Of a DNA stretch of 39,985 bases, positions 2,821 to 9,153 are shown piece by piece. The notes under the pieces were generated by a model. The model was not told where the DNA came from. It ran no database searches and saw only the letters and a list, made by a program, of their open reading frames with translations. The stretch is taken from IMG/VR virus record IMGVR_UViG_3300034110_000648, positions 1 to 39,985 of that record. The stretch is one strand, 5' to 3'. The translations under genes were made by a program, and so were the position numbers. Position 1 is the first letter of the stretch; every line of letters starts with the position of its first letter. This DNA comes from a virus.

Positions 2821-3093
2821 TCAGGGGTGGGTCGGGGTGATGGGCTCGTTAACTTCATGCTGAACGGGCACGGTGTATTGGGAAGCAGCGCTGACAGCCC
2901 TCTGCAGCGACTTCAGGCGCTCGTCGGCTTCATGGTGTTCGGTGCTGTACGCCCCTTCGTCAGCAGCCCAGGCGACAGCAATCGCTGTGTGGAAGATCTC
3001 TTCCAGCACGTCGCGCGGCACAAGGTCGAAAGTCACTTGGTGTGCCGTGATGGTGACGCGCCTAGTTGGGCGAAGCTGGGTGATATTGCTCAT
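2821..3093 (-). CDS. Hypothetical small phage protein, 90 aa
   Basis: A leftward frame overlapping the preceding gene by ATGA (3090-3093). It encodes a helical protein with a motif FDLVPRDVLEEIFHTAI followed by a conserved-looking helix ending in QHEV. The neighbouring upstream gene (3090-3365) has the same general pattern (VDLRTIPEDLKVEILQAAL and a C-terminal FMHEV), so the two may be tandem paralogues. No known domain is recognised. It is co-transcribed with the Arc-like repressor upstream and the antirepressor downstream. Confidence 0.7.
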   Translation of the reverse strand: MSNITQLRPTRRVTITAHQVTFDLVPRDVLEEIFHTAIAVAWAADEGAYSTEHHEADERLKSLQRAVSAASQYTVPVQHEVNEPITPTHP

Positions 3094-3365
3094 GCCGCTG
3101 CCCCTTCAGTTTTGGGCGTGATGTCCACCTCGTGCATGAACTGGCTGATGTGGCTCACGCGGCTTGCGAGCTGCTCCAGCACATCGGCCTCGGGCGAGTT
3201 GACCTGCAGGTCGTAGAGCTCGCCGTTGTCGTGAAGGCCCGCGACGTCGAGCGCCGCTTGCAGGATCTCCACCTTGAGGTCTTCGGGGATGGTGCGCAGG
3301 TCAACGAACCGCAGGCGTTCATTGCCGTAGCGTTCCCAGTGGATGGGGTTGATGGGCTTGCTCAC
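3090..3365 (-). CDS. Hypothetical small phage protein, 91 aa (GTG start)
   Basis: A much longer open frame (from 3698) runs antisense through the Arc-like genes and is not believable as protein. The likely start is GTG at 3365, which overlaps the TGA of the Arc-like gene as GTGA. This gives a 91-residue acidic protein beginning VSKPINPIHWERYGNE. It resembles the downstream 90-aa protein in layout (VDL-x2-P-x-D-x3-E followed by two helices). Function unknown. Confidence 0.65.
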   Translation of the reverse strand: MSKPINPIHWERYGNERLRFVDLRTIPEDLKVEILQAALDVAGLHDNGELYDLQVNSPEADVLEQLASRVSHISQFMHEVDITPKTEGAAA

Positions 3366-3526
3366 TGCTGGTTTCCTTTCGCTTGCTGTTGCTGTTTGCG
3401 GCTCTCTTCGAGCCTGAGAACGACCTCGGCCGTCAGGCTTCGGCGCGCGCTTTCCGCTTGCTCTTGCAGCCAACTTTTCAGCTCCACGGGGAGCCGAAGG
3501 TTGGTCTGGACTTCGCTGGGTGCCAT
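3362..3526 (-). CDS. Arc-like ribbon-helix-helix repressor, 54 aa
   Basis: The product starts MAPSEVQTNLRLPVELKSWL, a classic Arc/MetJ-type ribbon-helix-helix fold. The beta-strand VQTNLRLP would contact the DNA major groove, and the two helices end in SLTAEVVLRLEESRK. The tail is Gln-rich. ATG 3526 is chosen over an upstream ATG at 3595 because GAAAGGA precedes it and the upstream codons run through the promoter and operator DNA. It is the first gene of the leftward operon and diverges from a second Arc-like gene that shares the VQTNLRLP strand. Likely role: dimeric repressor of its own promoter, binding the AGCA-N3-TGCT sites. Confidence 0.85.
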   Translation of the reverse strand: MAPSEVQTNLRLPVELKSWLQEQAESARRSLTAEVVLRLEESRKQQQQAKGNQQ

Positions 3527-3543
3527 CGTGTTTCCTTTCATGT

Positions 3544-3601
3544 AGCACTCTGCTTGGTTTGCAATGTAGCAGTCTGCTTGGTTGCGTGCAAGCACTTTGC
3601 T
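3544..3601. promoter_or_regulatory. Three-site operator array, AGCA-N3-TGCT
   Basis: Three 11-bp palindromes lie between the divergent Arc-like genes: AGCACTCTGCT (3544-3554), AGCAGTCTGCT (3568-3578) and AGCACTTTGCT (3591-3601). Their starts are 24 and 23 bp apart, and each is followed by TGG. They overlap the start-point, spacer and -35 edge of the leftward promoter and the spacer of the rightward one. Spacing of about two helical turns would put bound dimers on one face of the DNA. Binding by the flanking Arc-like proteins is inference. Confidence 0.7.
3563..3591 (-). promoter_or_regulatory. Leftward promoter of the Arc-like/antirepressor operon
   Basis: On the minus strand, TTGCAC (3591-3586) and TACATT (3568-3563) are separated by exactly 17 bp, a good sigma-70 match. 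Transcription would begin near 3556, leaving a roughly 30-nt leader with GAAAGGA before the Arc-like start. The middle operator sits in the spacer and the first operator at the start-point, so a bound repressor would block it. Confidence 0.6.
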
Positions 3602-3609
3602 TGGATAAT
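3582..3609 (+). promoter_or_regulatory. Rightward promoter of the second Arc-like gene
   Basis: TTGCGT (3582-3587) and GATAAT (3604-3609) are 16 bp apart. A start-point 7 nt past the -10 box would fall on the A of the ATG at 3616. There is no Shine-Dalgarno sequence before this ATG. The mRNA is therefore probably leaderless, as in some phage repressor genes. The third operator lies inside the spacer. Confidence 0.5.
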
Positions 3610-3615
3610 CGACGC

Positions 3616-4053
3616 ATGGCCTCCGAAGACGTACAAACCAACCTCCGCCTCCCTGCTGATCTCAAGGACCGCTTGGTGGCATCCGCTGCCGAAAACAATC
3701 GATCGTTGAGCGCTGAGGTCGCATTCCGTTTGCAAGAGAGCTACGAGGTCGATCCGAAGGCCCTTGTGTCCGCCCTTAAAGGCCAGGCGGCGATCGCGCA
3801 GACGATGGCCCAATTCGTCATCAGCGCGGTTAACATCGCGGGCCCGCAGGCAACGCTGACAGCGGAAGTCATGAAGCTGATGAAAGAGGCAGCGACTCAG
3901 GTCAAAACCGGTGGGAAGCTGACGAATGAAGGGCCGTTGGACGACCTTATGGCTCTTCTCGTAGCTTTGGCCGATGCGTCTGAAGGCCAGGACCCTGTCG
4001 AGTACGCGAAGACGGTGTTGGCAAAACGTCGTAAAGACAAACCCAAGTCCTGA
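3616..4053 (+). CDS. Arc-like repressor with long C-terminal extension, 145 aa
   Basis: Residues 1-48 form an Arc-type ribbon-helix-helix domain (MASEDVQTNLRLPADLKDRL, then SLSAEVAFRLQESYEV), closely related to the divergent 54-aa protein. About 95 further residues follow: helical, Ala-rich, then a Lys/Arg-rich tail (AKRRKDKPKS). They could add oligomerisation or a partner-binding surface. The start is placed at ATG 3616 because the upstream in-frame ATG (3520) would read through the promoter. It is the only rightward gene in this part and converges with 4104-4892. Likely role: repressor of both divergent promoters. Confidence 0.8.
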   Translation: MASEDVQTNLRLPADLKDRLVASAAENNRSLSAEVAFRLQESYEVDPKALVSALKGQAAIAQTMAQFVISAVNIAGPQATLTAEVMKLMKEAATQVKTGGKLTNEGPLDDLMALLVALADASEGQDPVEYAKTVLAKRRKDKPKS

Positions 4054-4103
4054 ATCTTCTTTTGAGAATTCAGTTCTGAGCAACACCCGTGCTGGCGTGG
4101 CGC

Positions 4104-4892
4104 TCATGCCCATCCCCCAGCGATCAGGTTGCGAATGATTGCCGGGCCTTCGGTGCGGCCTGTGGCATCGTGTTCCTCTAGGTACTCAAACACCGCCAGG
4201 GCCTCGGCCATGTTGCGCGGCGCGATCCGCGCGAGCTGACGAAAGCAGAAATCGACGTGTTCCTGGAACTCGGGCCAGTGGTCGCCGGCCATGTCCACGC
4301 TGGCTTGGCGAAGCCAGTACAGGGACCGCTCGTATTCGTTGGCGTGGAGACAATCGGCGAGCGTTGACGGCACCAGTTCTGGGTGCTTCATGAATCGCGC
4401 ATCTGCTTTCGCGTGGTCGTAGCCCCAGAGTGCCTCCTTGTCCTTGCGCAGGCCCTTCAGGGCGGCCTTGCACGCGGTTTCCGCAGGCGTCATGGCGAAC
4501 AGGCCATCAATGGAGCCGAAGCGGGACAGGGCTTCATCCTTGCGTGCCTGTCGCTCCATCGTGGACTTGGCCAGCGACTCCAAATTGGCAAAGCCGAAGG
4601 TCATCAGCACGGCAGCGAAGTGGCCATTGGAGACGCGGGCCACATATTTGCTGTACCTGTCTTCGAGGTCCTTGGCAGGGGTCTTGATCTGCTTGAAGGC
4701 CTCCAGCGCTTTGTCTATCAGCGCAGGATGAGCGGTCTTGATGCAGTCGCGCAGCCAGAGGACTGCATCCAGCTCGCGGTCACCGGTCTCGTTCTTGGGG
4801 ACGGGTGTCTCCGGGATGGAGAGTGCTGTACTGGCGCTGGTCTGCACAGGCGGCAGCGTGAAGAGGGCGCGGAACGCCTGGTTGTCTTGCAT
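4104..4892 (-). CDS. Hypothetical phage protein, 262 aa
   Basis: The frame begins MQDNQAFRALFTLPP at ATG 4892 with only a weak ribosome site. The N-terminal 40 residues are Pro/Thr-rich. The rest is helical with no membrane segment or known motif (segments LDAVLWLRDCIKTAHPAL and FQEHVDFCFRQLARIA). It is the second gene of the leftward unit controlled by the promoter near 5213-5241. Position in the leftward early operon suggests a host-takeover or recombination accessory role, but nothing in the sequence proves this. Confidence 0.7.
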   Translation of the reverse strand: MQDNQAFRALFTLPPVQTSASTALSIPETPVPKNETGDRELDAVLWLRDCIKTAHPALIDKALEAFKQIKTPAKDLEDRYSKYVARVSNGHFAAVLMTFGFANLESLAKSTMERQARKDEALSRFGSIDGLFAMTPAETACKAALKGLRKDKEALWGYDHAKADARFMKHPELVPSTLADCLHANEYERSLYWLRQASVDMAGDHWPEFQEHVDFCFRQLARIAPRNMAEALAVFEYLEEHDATGRTEGPAIIRNLIAGGWA

Positions 4893-4910
4893 CTTGATCT
4901 CGCTGCGTTG

Positions 4911-5755: not shown

Positions 5756-5974
5756 CTACTCGCAGCCCAGCTCGGTCAGCGTGTCCTGCAGCGTCTTGAT
5801 GAGCCGCTCAACGTCCTCGGGCGGCATCTCGACCCAGGTGGTCGTGTAACGCTTGACGATTCGCTTAATCTTCTGTTTCTGAAGTTCTATCAACGATAGA
5901 AGACGGAATTGTGTATTTTTGATCTGGGTGTTTTTCCATTTTTGGAATCGTGTAAGCCAGCAGGCCTTCTGCAA
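5756..5974 (-). CDS. Small protein overlapping the Schlafen-like gene, possibly a truncated remnant, 72 aa
   Basis: The frame starts at 5974 inside the 3' end of the 694-aa gene (110 bp overlap) and ends just before the terminator. Its last third (TTTWVEMPPEDVERLIKTL) is GC-rich and looks like ordinary phage protein. Its first half is AT-rich and basic and shares DNA with the accessory gene. One reading is that insertion of the accessory gene cut off the original start of an older phage gene. Another is a genuine small overlapping partner gene. I cannot decide between them. Confidence 0.4.
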   Translation of the reverse strand: MQKACWLTRFQKWKNTQIKNTQFRLLSLIELQKQKIKRIVKRYTTTWVEMPPEDVERLIKTLQDTLTELGCE

Positions 5975-7949
5975 CCATTGGAGTTAAGAACTCCTTGACC
6001 AAATGTTTATGATCTTGCCGTCGTAACAGCGATGCAAGATCCCTTGCGCTCATTGGTTGTACCGTACAAATGTCGCGGATCAACTGACTGATTAAAGAAC
6101 GTCGTGGTCTCGTCCCCTCTGTAGGCAGTCGATCGATGATTCCTTGGGGTAGCGTGGGAGTCGCCTGGTAGGTGTGTTGATCATGCTGGTGGGTTTGTGC
6201 GCTTGCCTGGTGGGTTTGTGCGTTTGCCTGGTGGGTTTGTGCGTTTGCCTGGTGGGTTTGTGCGCTTGCCTGGTGGGTTTGTGCGTTTGCCTGGTGGGTT
6301 TGTGCGTTTGCCTGGTGGGTTTGTGCGCTTGCCTGGTGGGTTTGTGCGTTCAGCTGGCGGGTTTGATCTGTTTCGGCATCCATTCCGCCTAAATTACCTG
6401 CAGAAAGCTGCATCTGAGTCATGTGGACGCTAGCAGCCGCACTTGCGAAGGGCTTTCCTGGTATATAGTAAGTTTGACTGCCACTTCCCTTCATTGTCAG
6501 CAATTCAAGGTCACGTAACCTTCGCAAATGTGTTGATGCATTCAGTGTATCTGTACGGTTTATAGAGCGATAAGCAGCGTTGTCAATAGCACCAACTTCT
6601 CGTACAAAGATCAATGCCCTGGACTCTTCGTCGGTTAGAGTTTCAGGCGTTATAGCTCGGAGCCAAGCGATATCTTCAGCTCCTAGGAAATGATGAAAAA
6701 GGAATGTGGCCACGAACTGATCTGGCTGCCTAGTTGACTCGAATGTTGGCGGCAGCAAGTTGTGCTGAATCATCAGCTCTCGCATTGCTCTAATTCCACT
6801 GCCCTTTGTTTCGGCGATATTTAAGTCGTGAAGAACAGCTGCGATTTTTGGATTCCGCGTCTGACTTCCTGGCTCTCCCAGCTGCTCTTCTGTTTTTATT
6901 GAGTGCCCAGGATTTCGAATTTCTATTCGATTTGCATACCTTATTATCTGAGTTGCCCCATGAATTCGATAACTGCGATGCATGACGGAATTAACTATGG
7001 CTTCGCGAATAACGCGTAATGGAAGTGCCGGCTCGTCTTCTCGTGCAAGCGCGCCTTCAGGTAAAGAAAATGACTGCGTCAACTCATCGCGTACTGCATT
7101 TTCCGCGCGCCTAATGGCTAAAAGCAATGGTGCTCTTATCTCTATCTGATCAAAGCGATGATCTGGATCTTCTACCCACTGGCGACCAGGGACGCGAATG
7201 TAATCAATGCGCATCATTGGGAAGCATCGCCTCAATGCCATTGAGGTGCCGAAAAGCAATATCCCTGCAACGGTTGGCCGAAACTCAATACCACGTTTCA
7301 CGACAGCACCCAATGATCGAAGTAGATCTTCATCACTCCAGGAAAGCTCTTCGGCTGCTGAATTTACTTTCGCTCGTAAACGCCGATACTCGTTCAGTGC
7401 ATCCGGATCGATATCGGTTAAGTCAGTATCTGGTAGGAGGGAAGAATCATATGTTTCAACCTGATGCCCCATGTAGAGTGCAATTAGATCATCTTCACTG
7501 CTTTGCTGGTCGGTTGGTCCAACACGCCTAAATGCACCTCTAGGCAAACCAAGATTGCTAATATAAATAGGCTTGTCTGTAGCTGCTGATTCAGGTACAT
7601 AAACAACTACTACCGCTTTGCCTTGGACAGCCTCGACAGAAATGATTGGGCGTACAGGGCGGTTAAATGTTGTTGCACACTGGCTTGCAACATCACTCTG
7701 AATCTTGTCCGGATTTTCTATGCCTACTACTTGATATGCCGTACCAAACATATCATCTGGATCACGCACAACGCCAAGAAGCAAATAGCCACCGCCTAGG
7801 CCGGGCTCGTTGGCGAATGCTGAGACCGTCTCCATGATTGACCGGTCAACTTTTGTGCAGCGCTTTGCTTCGACGCGATGCGACTCATCTAGCGTCGTTA
7901 GTTCCTGCAGGAGATCTTCAGCACTGCGCATTTTGACGTCAGATTTCAT
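5865..7949 (-). CDS. AlbA_2 (Schlafen-like) / HATPase_c_4 family protein with repeat linker, 694 aa
   Basis: Residues about 10-160 match the AlbA_2 (Schlafen-type) domain: an acidic ESHRVEAKR start and the end motif GAFRRVGPTDQQ followed by EDDLIALY. Residues about 300-400 match the HATPase_c_4 region of RecG-like transcriptional regulators (VIREAIVNSVMHRSYR, RIEIRNPG, GSGIRAMRELM). Winged-helix-like segments follow. Residues about 533-588 are eight copies of a seven-residue A-[SN]-A-Q-T-H-Q repeat, then a final helical domain. Unlike its neighbours the gene is AT-rich, a sign of recent transfer. Proteins of this type occur as regulators and in anti-phage islands. A prophage-encoded defence or regulatory cargo role is my inference. 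Confidence 0.8.
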   Translation of the reverse strand: MKSDVKMRSAEDLLQELTTLDESHRVEAKRCTKVDRSIMETVSAFANEPGLGGGYLLLGVVRDPDDMFGTAYQVVGIENPDKIQSDVASQCATTFNRPVRPIISVEAVQGKAVVVVYVPESAATDKPIYISNLGLPRGAFRRVGPTDQQSSEDDLIALYMGHQVETYDSSLLPDTDLTDIDPDALNEYRRLRAKVNSAAEELSWSDEDLLRSLGAVVKRGIEFRPTVAGILLFGTSMALRRCFPMMRIDYIRVPGRQWVEDPDHRFDQIEIRAPLLLAIRRAENAVRDELTQSFSLPEGALAREDEPALPLRVIREAIVNSVMHRSYRIHGATQIIRYANRIEIRNPGHSIKTEEQLGEPGSQTRNPKIAAVLHDLNIAETKGSGIRAMRELMIQHNLLPPTFESTRQPDQFVATFLFHHFLGAEDIAWLRAITPETLTDEESRALIFVREVGAIDNAAYRSINRTDTLNASTHLRRLRDLELLTMKGSGSQTYYIPGKPFASAAASVHMTQMQLSAGNLGGMDAETDQTRQLNAQTHQASAQTHQANAQTHQANAQTHQASAQTHQANAQTHQANAQTHQASAQTHQHDQHTYQATPTLPQGIIDRLPTEGTRPRRSLISQLIRDICTVQPMSARDLASLLRRQDHKHLVKEFLTPMVAEGLLAYTIPKMEKHPDQKYTIPSSIVDRTSETED
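6186..6353 (-). repeat. 21-bp tandem repeat (8 units) in the Schlafen-like gene
   Basis: Eight near-identical 21-bp units (plus-strand unit begins CTGGTGGGTTTG) run from 6186. They differ at one position in a C-T-T, C-T-T, C-T order. That gives a higher-order period of 63 bp and suggests duplication in blocks of three. The encoded linker alternates ASAQTHQ, ANAQTHQ, ANAQTHQ. Copy number is likely to vary between relatives. Confidence 0.9.
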
Positions 7950-8141: not shown

Positions 8142-8843
8142 TCAGCGCTTGCGGAACTTTCGCCGGTGCTCAACCATGGTTCCTATCACAACCAGGTGAT
8201 GCTCATCGCTGCGCATGACCGGGTAGTCTGGGTTTAGTGGCACCAACTCGAAGACCTCGCAGCCTGTGTTTGTGATGCCTCGGACGCGATACTTTTTGAA
8301 GGTGGCTTCGCTCTTGGAGTTCTTGGCCGCCACATAGTCCCCCGGCCTTGGAACCACCTCGGGGTCAATCAGCGCCAGATCGCCTTGGTTGAACTCTGGA
8401 AACATCGAGTCTCCCTCGATCTCCAAGAAGAAAGCCCAAGGTGATGCGTCGTCGTCGCCGTACACAATGGCGTATCCGTCACCTGGCTCGTAGGGTGACG
8501 CCATCTCCCTGACTTGGCCCGCCTGGATCCTCGAAATCACAGGGTAGGCGCGCATACCAGCGCTTGCGGGCTTGACGTTCCGGTCAAAGTTCTGACTTGG
8601 CGCCTCCGTCGCTTCGCGCGGCTCAAGACCCTCCGCAAGCCAGGCAGGCGACACCTTCAGCCCGTATGCGGCGCAAATGGTCTCAGCGTGTCGGCGGGCA
8701 ATTGTGGATACCTTCTCCGGATTGTTGAACCACGCGGAAACTGTTGGACGGCTTACCTCGCAGATCTTTGCGATGTTGGCCATCACCCCGCGTTCCATCG
8801 GTGGCGGGAAGACCTCACGCAGTCTGTCTTGTAACTTGCTCAT
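8142..8843 (-). CDS. CI-like lysogeny repressor, HTH plus LexA/S24 peptidase, 233 aa
   Basis: Residues about 20-45 form a helix-turn-helix (ANIAKICEVSRPTVSAWF). Residues 100-225 form a LexA-type self-cleavage domain: the cleavage site Ala108-Gly109 (IQAGQV), catalytic Ser146 in EGDSMFPEF, and catalytic Lys183 or Lys184 in ATFKKY. The protein should maintain lysogeny and be cleaved when RecA is activated by DNA damage. The start codon overlaps an operator, with no ribosome site before it, so the mRNA is probably leaderless or nearly so. Cro-like and CII-like genes follow on the other side. Probable targets: the sites at 8842-8905 and 5216-5276. Confidence 0.93.
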   Translation of the reverse strand: MSKLQDRLREVFPPPMERGVMANIAKICEVSRPTVSAWFNNPEKVSTIARRHAETICAAYGLKVSPAWLAEGLEPREATEAPSQNFDRNVKPASAGMRAYPVISRIQAGQVREMASPYEPGDGYAIVYGDDDASPWAFFLEIEGDSMFPEFNQGDLALIDPEVVPRPGDYVAAKNSKSEATFKKYRVRGITNTGCEVFELVPLNPDYPVMRSDEHHLVVIGTMVEHRRKFRKR

Positions 8844-8905
8844 TAGCGTAGCCTAACTTTTTATCCGTTAGCTTGGGCTTGCGTATAAAGTTAGCTTGAT
8901 CTAAC
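8842..8905. promoter_or_regulatory. Lysogeny switch: three CI/Cro operators and opposed promoters
   Basis: Operators: ATTAGCGTAGCCTAAC (8842-8857), GTTAGCTTGGGCTTGC (8867-8882, weaker right half) and GTTAGCTTGATCTAAC (8890-8905, perfect). Starts are 25 and 23 bp apart. A rightward promoter may use TTATCC (8861-8866) and TATAAA (8884-8889), spacing 17. A leftward promoter for CI may use TTATAC (8888-8883) and GATAAA (8865-8860), also spacing 17. The two promoters would occupy the same DNA and exclude each other, with the middle operator filling both spacers. An alternative rightward pair, TTGCGT (8879-8884) and TAACAT (8902-8907), would start exactly at the cro ATG. The -35 boxes are weak, so promoter assignments are tentative. 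Confidence 0.6.
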
Positions 8906-8913
8906 ATGTATGC

Positions 8914-9153
8914 ATGAACAAGCCCGCAACCCAGGTTATCGACGCGCTCGGCGGCACCGCTGCGGTAGCGCGCATCTTCGACGTGAGACAGCCCAGCGTC
9001 AGCGACTGGAAGAAGGACGGCATCCCGGCATCGCGGGTGATGTTCCTAAAGCTGGCGTACCGCAAGGCACTGACCGGCATCGACTTGGCGGCCGCCACGG
9101 CACCGCGCCGAGCCCGCATGACACAGCCCGCAACCCAGGCCCGGGAGGCCTGA
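8914..9153 (+). CDS. P22 Cro-like repressor, 79 aa
   Basis: The product carries the P22-Cro/YdaS-type HTH: VIDALGGTAAVARIFDVRQ followed by SVSDWKKDGIP and a short helix. It diverges from the CI gene across the three operators, as expected for Cro. Its role would be to shut off CI and damp early transcription during lytic growth. No Shine-Dalgarno sequence precedes ATG 8914, and another ATG at 8906 is out of frame. The C-terminal 25 residues are Ala/Thr/Arg-rich and look disordered. Confidence 0.85.
   Translation: MNKPATQVIDALGGTAAVARIFDVRQPSVSDWKKDGIPASRVMFLKLAYRKALTGIDLAAATAPRRARMTQPATQAREA

Follow-up and report, generated by a model that had tools for sequence, protein, structure and literature searches.

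The divergent pair of Arc-family ribbon-helix-helix (RHH) genes at positions 3362-4053 of the virus record IMGVR_UViG_3300034110_000648 (39,985 bases; this whole stretch is hereafter the window) is a prophage variant of the immI (arc/mnt/ant) module of phage P22. We consider it likely that the locus works as a secondary immunity cassette of that kind, with the longer of the two proteins in the role of Mnt. As judged from sequence, what would be new relative to P22 is a homotypic array of three sites, a probably leaderless Mnt-like gene and an exchangeable antirepressor. A regulatory cassette of textbook standing, P22 immI has been known chiefly from P22-like phages. The earlier note on this DNA, which had suggested that the pair could make a bistable switch, did not recognise the mnt/arc/ant layout of the locus, which is not an isolated novelty.

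The window is a prophage, with open reading frames that read as terminase, portal, tape measure and lysis genes. Domain searches identify a CI-like S24 repressor gene (8142-8843, minus strand) and a Cro/YdaS-like gene (8914-9153, plus strand). The RHH pair, about 4 kb away from the CI gene, is thus separate from the CI/Cro region (8142-9153), as the earlier note had it and as in P22. It is not near the late genes, in contrast to P22-like phages, in which immI is placed within the late operon, with genes 16 and 9 on either side; this feature concerns position and not function. A 694-residue protein is encoded at 5865-7949 (minus strand), with about ten heptapeptide repeats, NAQTHQA or SAQTHQA, near its C-terminal part (6174-6400).

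The short gene (3362-3526, minus strand) encodes 54 residues (53 in P22 Arc) and the long gene (3616-4053, plus strand) 145 residues, the partner being the longer one in both systems. The two are separated by 89 bp, while 90 bp separate arc and mnt in P22 (AF217253). Both proteins score above the Pfam Arc (PF03869) gathering cut-off of 20.4 bits, with 29.2 bits (E 8.5e-7) for the short protein and 27.1 bits (E 3.8e-6) for the long one, and they are 57% identical across 42 residues. Their description as an Arc-like pair sharing the strand VQTNLRLP is therefore correct, whereas in P22 the strands differ, QFNLR in Arc and HFNFR in Mnt. The extra domain of 95 residues attributed to the long protein exists as a part of about 100 residues after the RHH domain, which is predicted to be helical at low confidence, the AlphaFold model being poor (pLDDT 63.6, pTM 0.35). 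This C-terminal part is longer than in P22 and hypervariable across relatives: clustering those of 76 long proteins at E 1e-3 gives 46 groups, and that of the window stands alone in its group. Our conjecture is that such hypervariable C-termini might insulate coexisting prophages by blocking mixed oligomers.

As in P22, where ant comes after arc, the short gene heads an antirepressor operon. It is the first in a series of minus-strand genes that overlap or lie close together (3362-3526 to 148-966), followed by a 91-residue gene (3090-3365), whose GTG start overlaps the TGA of the short gene and which has no Pfam match, and by a 90-residue gene (2821-3093), whose start overlaps the preceding stop. 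Next come an AntA/AntB-type antirepressor (1917-2807; Pfam AntA, E 6.9e-22; PHROG anti-repressor Ant, E 2.3e-33) and genes of 271 (963-1778) and 272 residues (148-966), the former with 88% DNA identity in the related locus L004 and the latter largely kept there (match from 221). The idea that the pair feeds the antirepressor operon is supported by position, but AntA is the fourth gene of the operon and not adjacent to the short gene. An AntA-type antirepressor and several other genes in the operon are unlike P22.

Three AGCA-N3-TGCT palindromes lie in the 89 bp, 24 and 23 bp apart, exactly as first described. Site 1 (AGCACTCTGCT, 3544-3554), a candidate operator like the other two, is centred 23 bp upstream of the short ATG and is the positional counterpart of the P22 mnt operator (TCCACGGTGGA), which is centred 25 bp before arc and, as TCCA-CGG-TGGA, fits the same XXCA-N3-TGX'X' rule. 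Site 2 (AGCAGTCTGCT, 3568-3578) and site 3 (AGCACTTTGCT, 3591-3601) lie within the spacers of the predicted promoters of the short and long genes, respectively. P22 thus differs in having a single site for Mnt and another, of a different kind, for Arc, instead of three sites of one type with the third in the long gene's promoter. The palindromes sit in a 20-nt direct repeat, the copies of which are 70-95% alike to the reference copy. AGCA-N3-TGCT matches number four in the whole 40 kb window versus 1.22 expected by chance, and about 1e-7 triples at such spacing would be expected by chance. P22 Oarc (AGCACTCTACT) shows some likeness to site 1, but the dyads are 3 bp apart and we have taken this as chance. 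In the literature searched, which covers few subscription journals, we found no published account of the three-site array.

The promoter predicted for the short gene and its operon (3563-3591, minus strand) reads TTGCAC-17-TACATT with a TG before the -10, and that of the long gene (3582-3609, plus strand) reads TTGCGT-16-GATAAT. The proposed overlap of the palindromes with both promoters is plausible, although the hexamers are weak (8/12 and 7/12 at best) and a strict scan found no promoter. The long gene's start does look leaderless, as had been claimed: the GATAAT ends 6 nt upstream of its ATG, and no good Shine-Dalgarno sequence is found in its upstream region, while the short ATG is preceded by the Shine-Dalgarno-like AAGGA. 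This register is conserved, a -10-like hexamer ending 6-7 nt before the long ATG in 29 of 34 intergenic regions of the AGCA class (related loci that are not independent, several with weak hexamers), while the intervening bases vary freely. Across these regions, long genes are without a good Shine-Dalgarno sequence and short genes nearly always have one. Since the -10/ATG register is conserved and there is no good Shine-Dalgarno sequence, these regions are most simply read as giving a transcript that begins at the ATG or right beside it, and the long gene is probably leaderless. In contrast, P22 mnt is preceded by a leader that contains GGAG.

The palindromes are conserved in homologous divergent pairs, the lack of which the earlier note had named as grounds for refutation. 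We surveyed 78 distinct divergent RHH pairs, collected through protein-based and DNA-pattern-based fetches plus annotated phage records. Each pair is represented by a locus obtained without the DNA pattern, and therefore the way in which the loci were collected does not predetermine the operator statistics. At least two full palindromes of one XXCA-N3-TGX'X' type are present in 38/78 pairs (0.005 in shuffled sequences), and at least three in 32/78 (0 in shuffled sequences). Three exact AGCA-N3-TGCT sites occur in 31 distinct pairs in a near-fixed register. The distance to the short ATG is usually 22-25 bp for site 1, that to the long ATG is usually 19-21 bp for site 3, and the spacings between sites are mostly 23-29 and 23-27. 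Antirepressor-type domains are frequent downstream (P22_AR_N in 13 of 58 ORFs, Rha in 6, KilA-N in 6, Bro-N in 6 and ORF6N in 5). Named relatives are found in Comamonas, Simplicispira and Paraburkholderia genomes. A search of genome contigs with the RHH domain alone gave only four loci, and relatives are present in 7/400 genomes from the family of the Comamonas relative, as expected of sporadic prophages. The Pseudomonas phage UFJF_PfDIW6 (OM418631), known from annotation alone, likewise has a divergent Arc-family pair with an antirepressor downstream of the short gene, but its long strand is of the F type and it has no AGCA triple.

Across the family, the type of palindrome changes with the long protein's recognition strand. 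Where the residue between Q and N of the long strand is V, T, M or L, the sites are AGCA-N3-TGCT (41 loci), and where it is F, they are A[TC]CA-N3-TG[AG]T (11 classifiable loci). One K-strand protein is the sole exception to this split (Fisher 1.6e-10, uncorrected for relatedness). P22 Mnt (HFN) goes with TCCA, and longs with TIYMR go with TGCA. When all RHH columns of both proteins are considered, site type is best predicted by columns 8 (z=8.1) and 7 (z=6.6) of the long protein, and the 14 best columns include none from the short protein. Site type is kept in 21/21 locus pairs with similar longs and unrelated shorts. Conversely, shorts that are 80-85% identical stand beside AGCA sites when the long is QVN (L081) and beside A[TC]CA sites when the longs are QFN (L084, L089 and L098). 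Site type is also associated, though less strongly, with the short strand (p=0.014, uncorrected). The link between strand and operator rests on about three to four independent changes, too few events for significance in the strict tree test, in which the phylogenetically independent contrast goes in the right direction. L050 does not fit the rule, and such palindromes are missing from a clade of seven loci whose longs carry QVNLR (L040 and L042-L047). Since site type tracks the long strand, and the short strand much less, the three palindromes are most likely the operators of the Mnt-like long protein.

Two further observations concern specificity. The intergenic regions of L142 and L147, with QLN longs, have mixed half-sites, AGCA on one side and ATCA on the other, possibly representing an intermediate specificity. 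In the L028 pair, whose strands read QFKLR with K in place of N, the palindromes are ACCCANTGGGT, a further operator register.

The main alternative builds on the shared operator originally envisaged: both proteins would bind the same three palindromes through VQTNLRLP, in a competition like that of CI and Cro at OR, with different site preference setting the switch. We regard this as a serious possibility, albeit one that we do not favour. The recognition strands are identical in the window's clade, where both proteins may therefore recognise these sites, and no TAGA or TCTA half-sites, as in P22 Oarc, are found in the 89 bp (3527-3615). The shorts in most other AGCA-class clades have strands unlike that of the long, which makes the match a feature of the clade. 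An operator shared by both proteins is at odds with palindromes that track the long protein across the family, and with the shorts of L033-L035, which stand beside AGCA arrays without any QxNxR strand. An Arc-like site of another kind may exist within the intergenic region.

Heterodimers of the short and long proteins as the active species, also put forward in the earlier note, would be compatible with 57% identity across the RHH domain, but we find no support for them and consider them improbable. Different shorts replace one another beside a constant long type, and vice versa, which fits separate homodimers better, and short and long proteins appear (with weak support) to belong mostly to old and separate lineages. 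The idea of a toxin-antitoxin or plasmid-partition operon under RHH control, which draws on PHROG matches to phrog_795 and phrog_2685 labelled "partition protein ATPase," is highly improbable since RefSeq gives the Mnt proteins of phages ST160 and SE1 that label too, while the operon codes for an AntA antirepressor, and neither a toxin nor ParA was recognised among its genes. We therefore rejected a partition-protein identity based on these labels. The label itself is apparently wrong for Mnt-type proteins, both in PHROGs (phrog_795 and phrog_2685) and in RefSeq (NC_014900 and NC_011802).

Turning to the surroundings of the cassette as an immI variant, the related locus L001 (IMGVR 2913649978_000002) is 99.8% identical to the window over 3362-4905 and, in the fetched stretch, shows no match on the operon side of 3362. 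This sharp recombination border (L001:2747) coincides with the last base of the short gene. The exchanged block includes a 262-residue gene (4104-4892, minus strand; phrog_6204) that adjoins the 3' end of the long gene and is common to L001 (99.8%). Beyond the border, L001 has a Bro-N antirepressor versus AntA in the window. Close relatives have antirepressors of the Rha (L002 and L005), Bro-N (L129) and ORF6N (L130) types. On this sequence evidence, the antirepressor is swapped between relatives at the short-gene end.

P22 provides a template for how the cassette might work. There, arc and ant are under repression by Mnt, while Arc acts as a repressor of mnt and a moderator of ant, and Ant binds the C2 repressor (PMC11016777), roles that are further documented elsewhere (PMC7549136, PMC2629481, PMC8022706). 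Mutual repression would therefore be the expected wiring here, and we infer from P22 both the directions of repression and the action of the antirepressor on CI. In a lysogen, the long protein would be made from its own predicted leaderless promoter and would bind the three palindromes. Occupied sites 1 and 2 would shut off the promoter from which the short gene and the antirepressor operon are transcribed, while binding to site 3, in the long gene's promoter, would allow the long protein to limit its own synthesis. Upon infection, before the long protein builds up, the operon promoter would be open, and the short protein, its companions and AntA would be made. AntA would counter the CI-like repressor, and the short protein would later damp both the operon and the long gene, as P22 Arc does.

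In lambda-type CI/Cro regions, three operators likewise lie between divergent repressor genes and the transcript of the maintenance repressor is leaderless. However, those repressors are HTH proteins controlling early lytic genes, whereas here RHH proteins would control an antirepressor operon. Tentatively, and with considerable doubt, we suggest that in the window's Burkholderiales clade two separately evolved RHH repressors converged on one strand and read one three-site operator oppositely, in CI/Cro-like fashion, while elsewhere operator type and long strand changed together, yielding a natural RHH recognition code and mutually insulated secondary immunities.

The survey shows immI to be a mobile, mosaic switch that many prophages carry and of which there are tens of natural variants. 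Among these variants, a difference in recognition strand comes with a difference in operator type, and one antirepressor replaces another downstream of a control unit that stays constant. They are ready material for studying RHH specificity and how prophages keep their secondary immunities apart.
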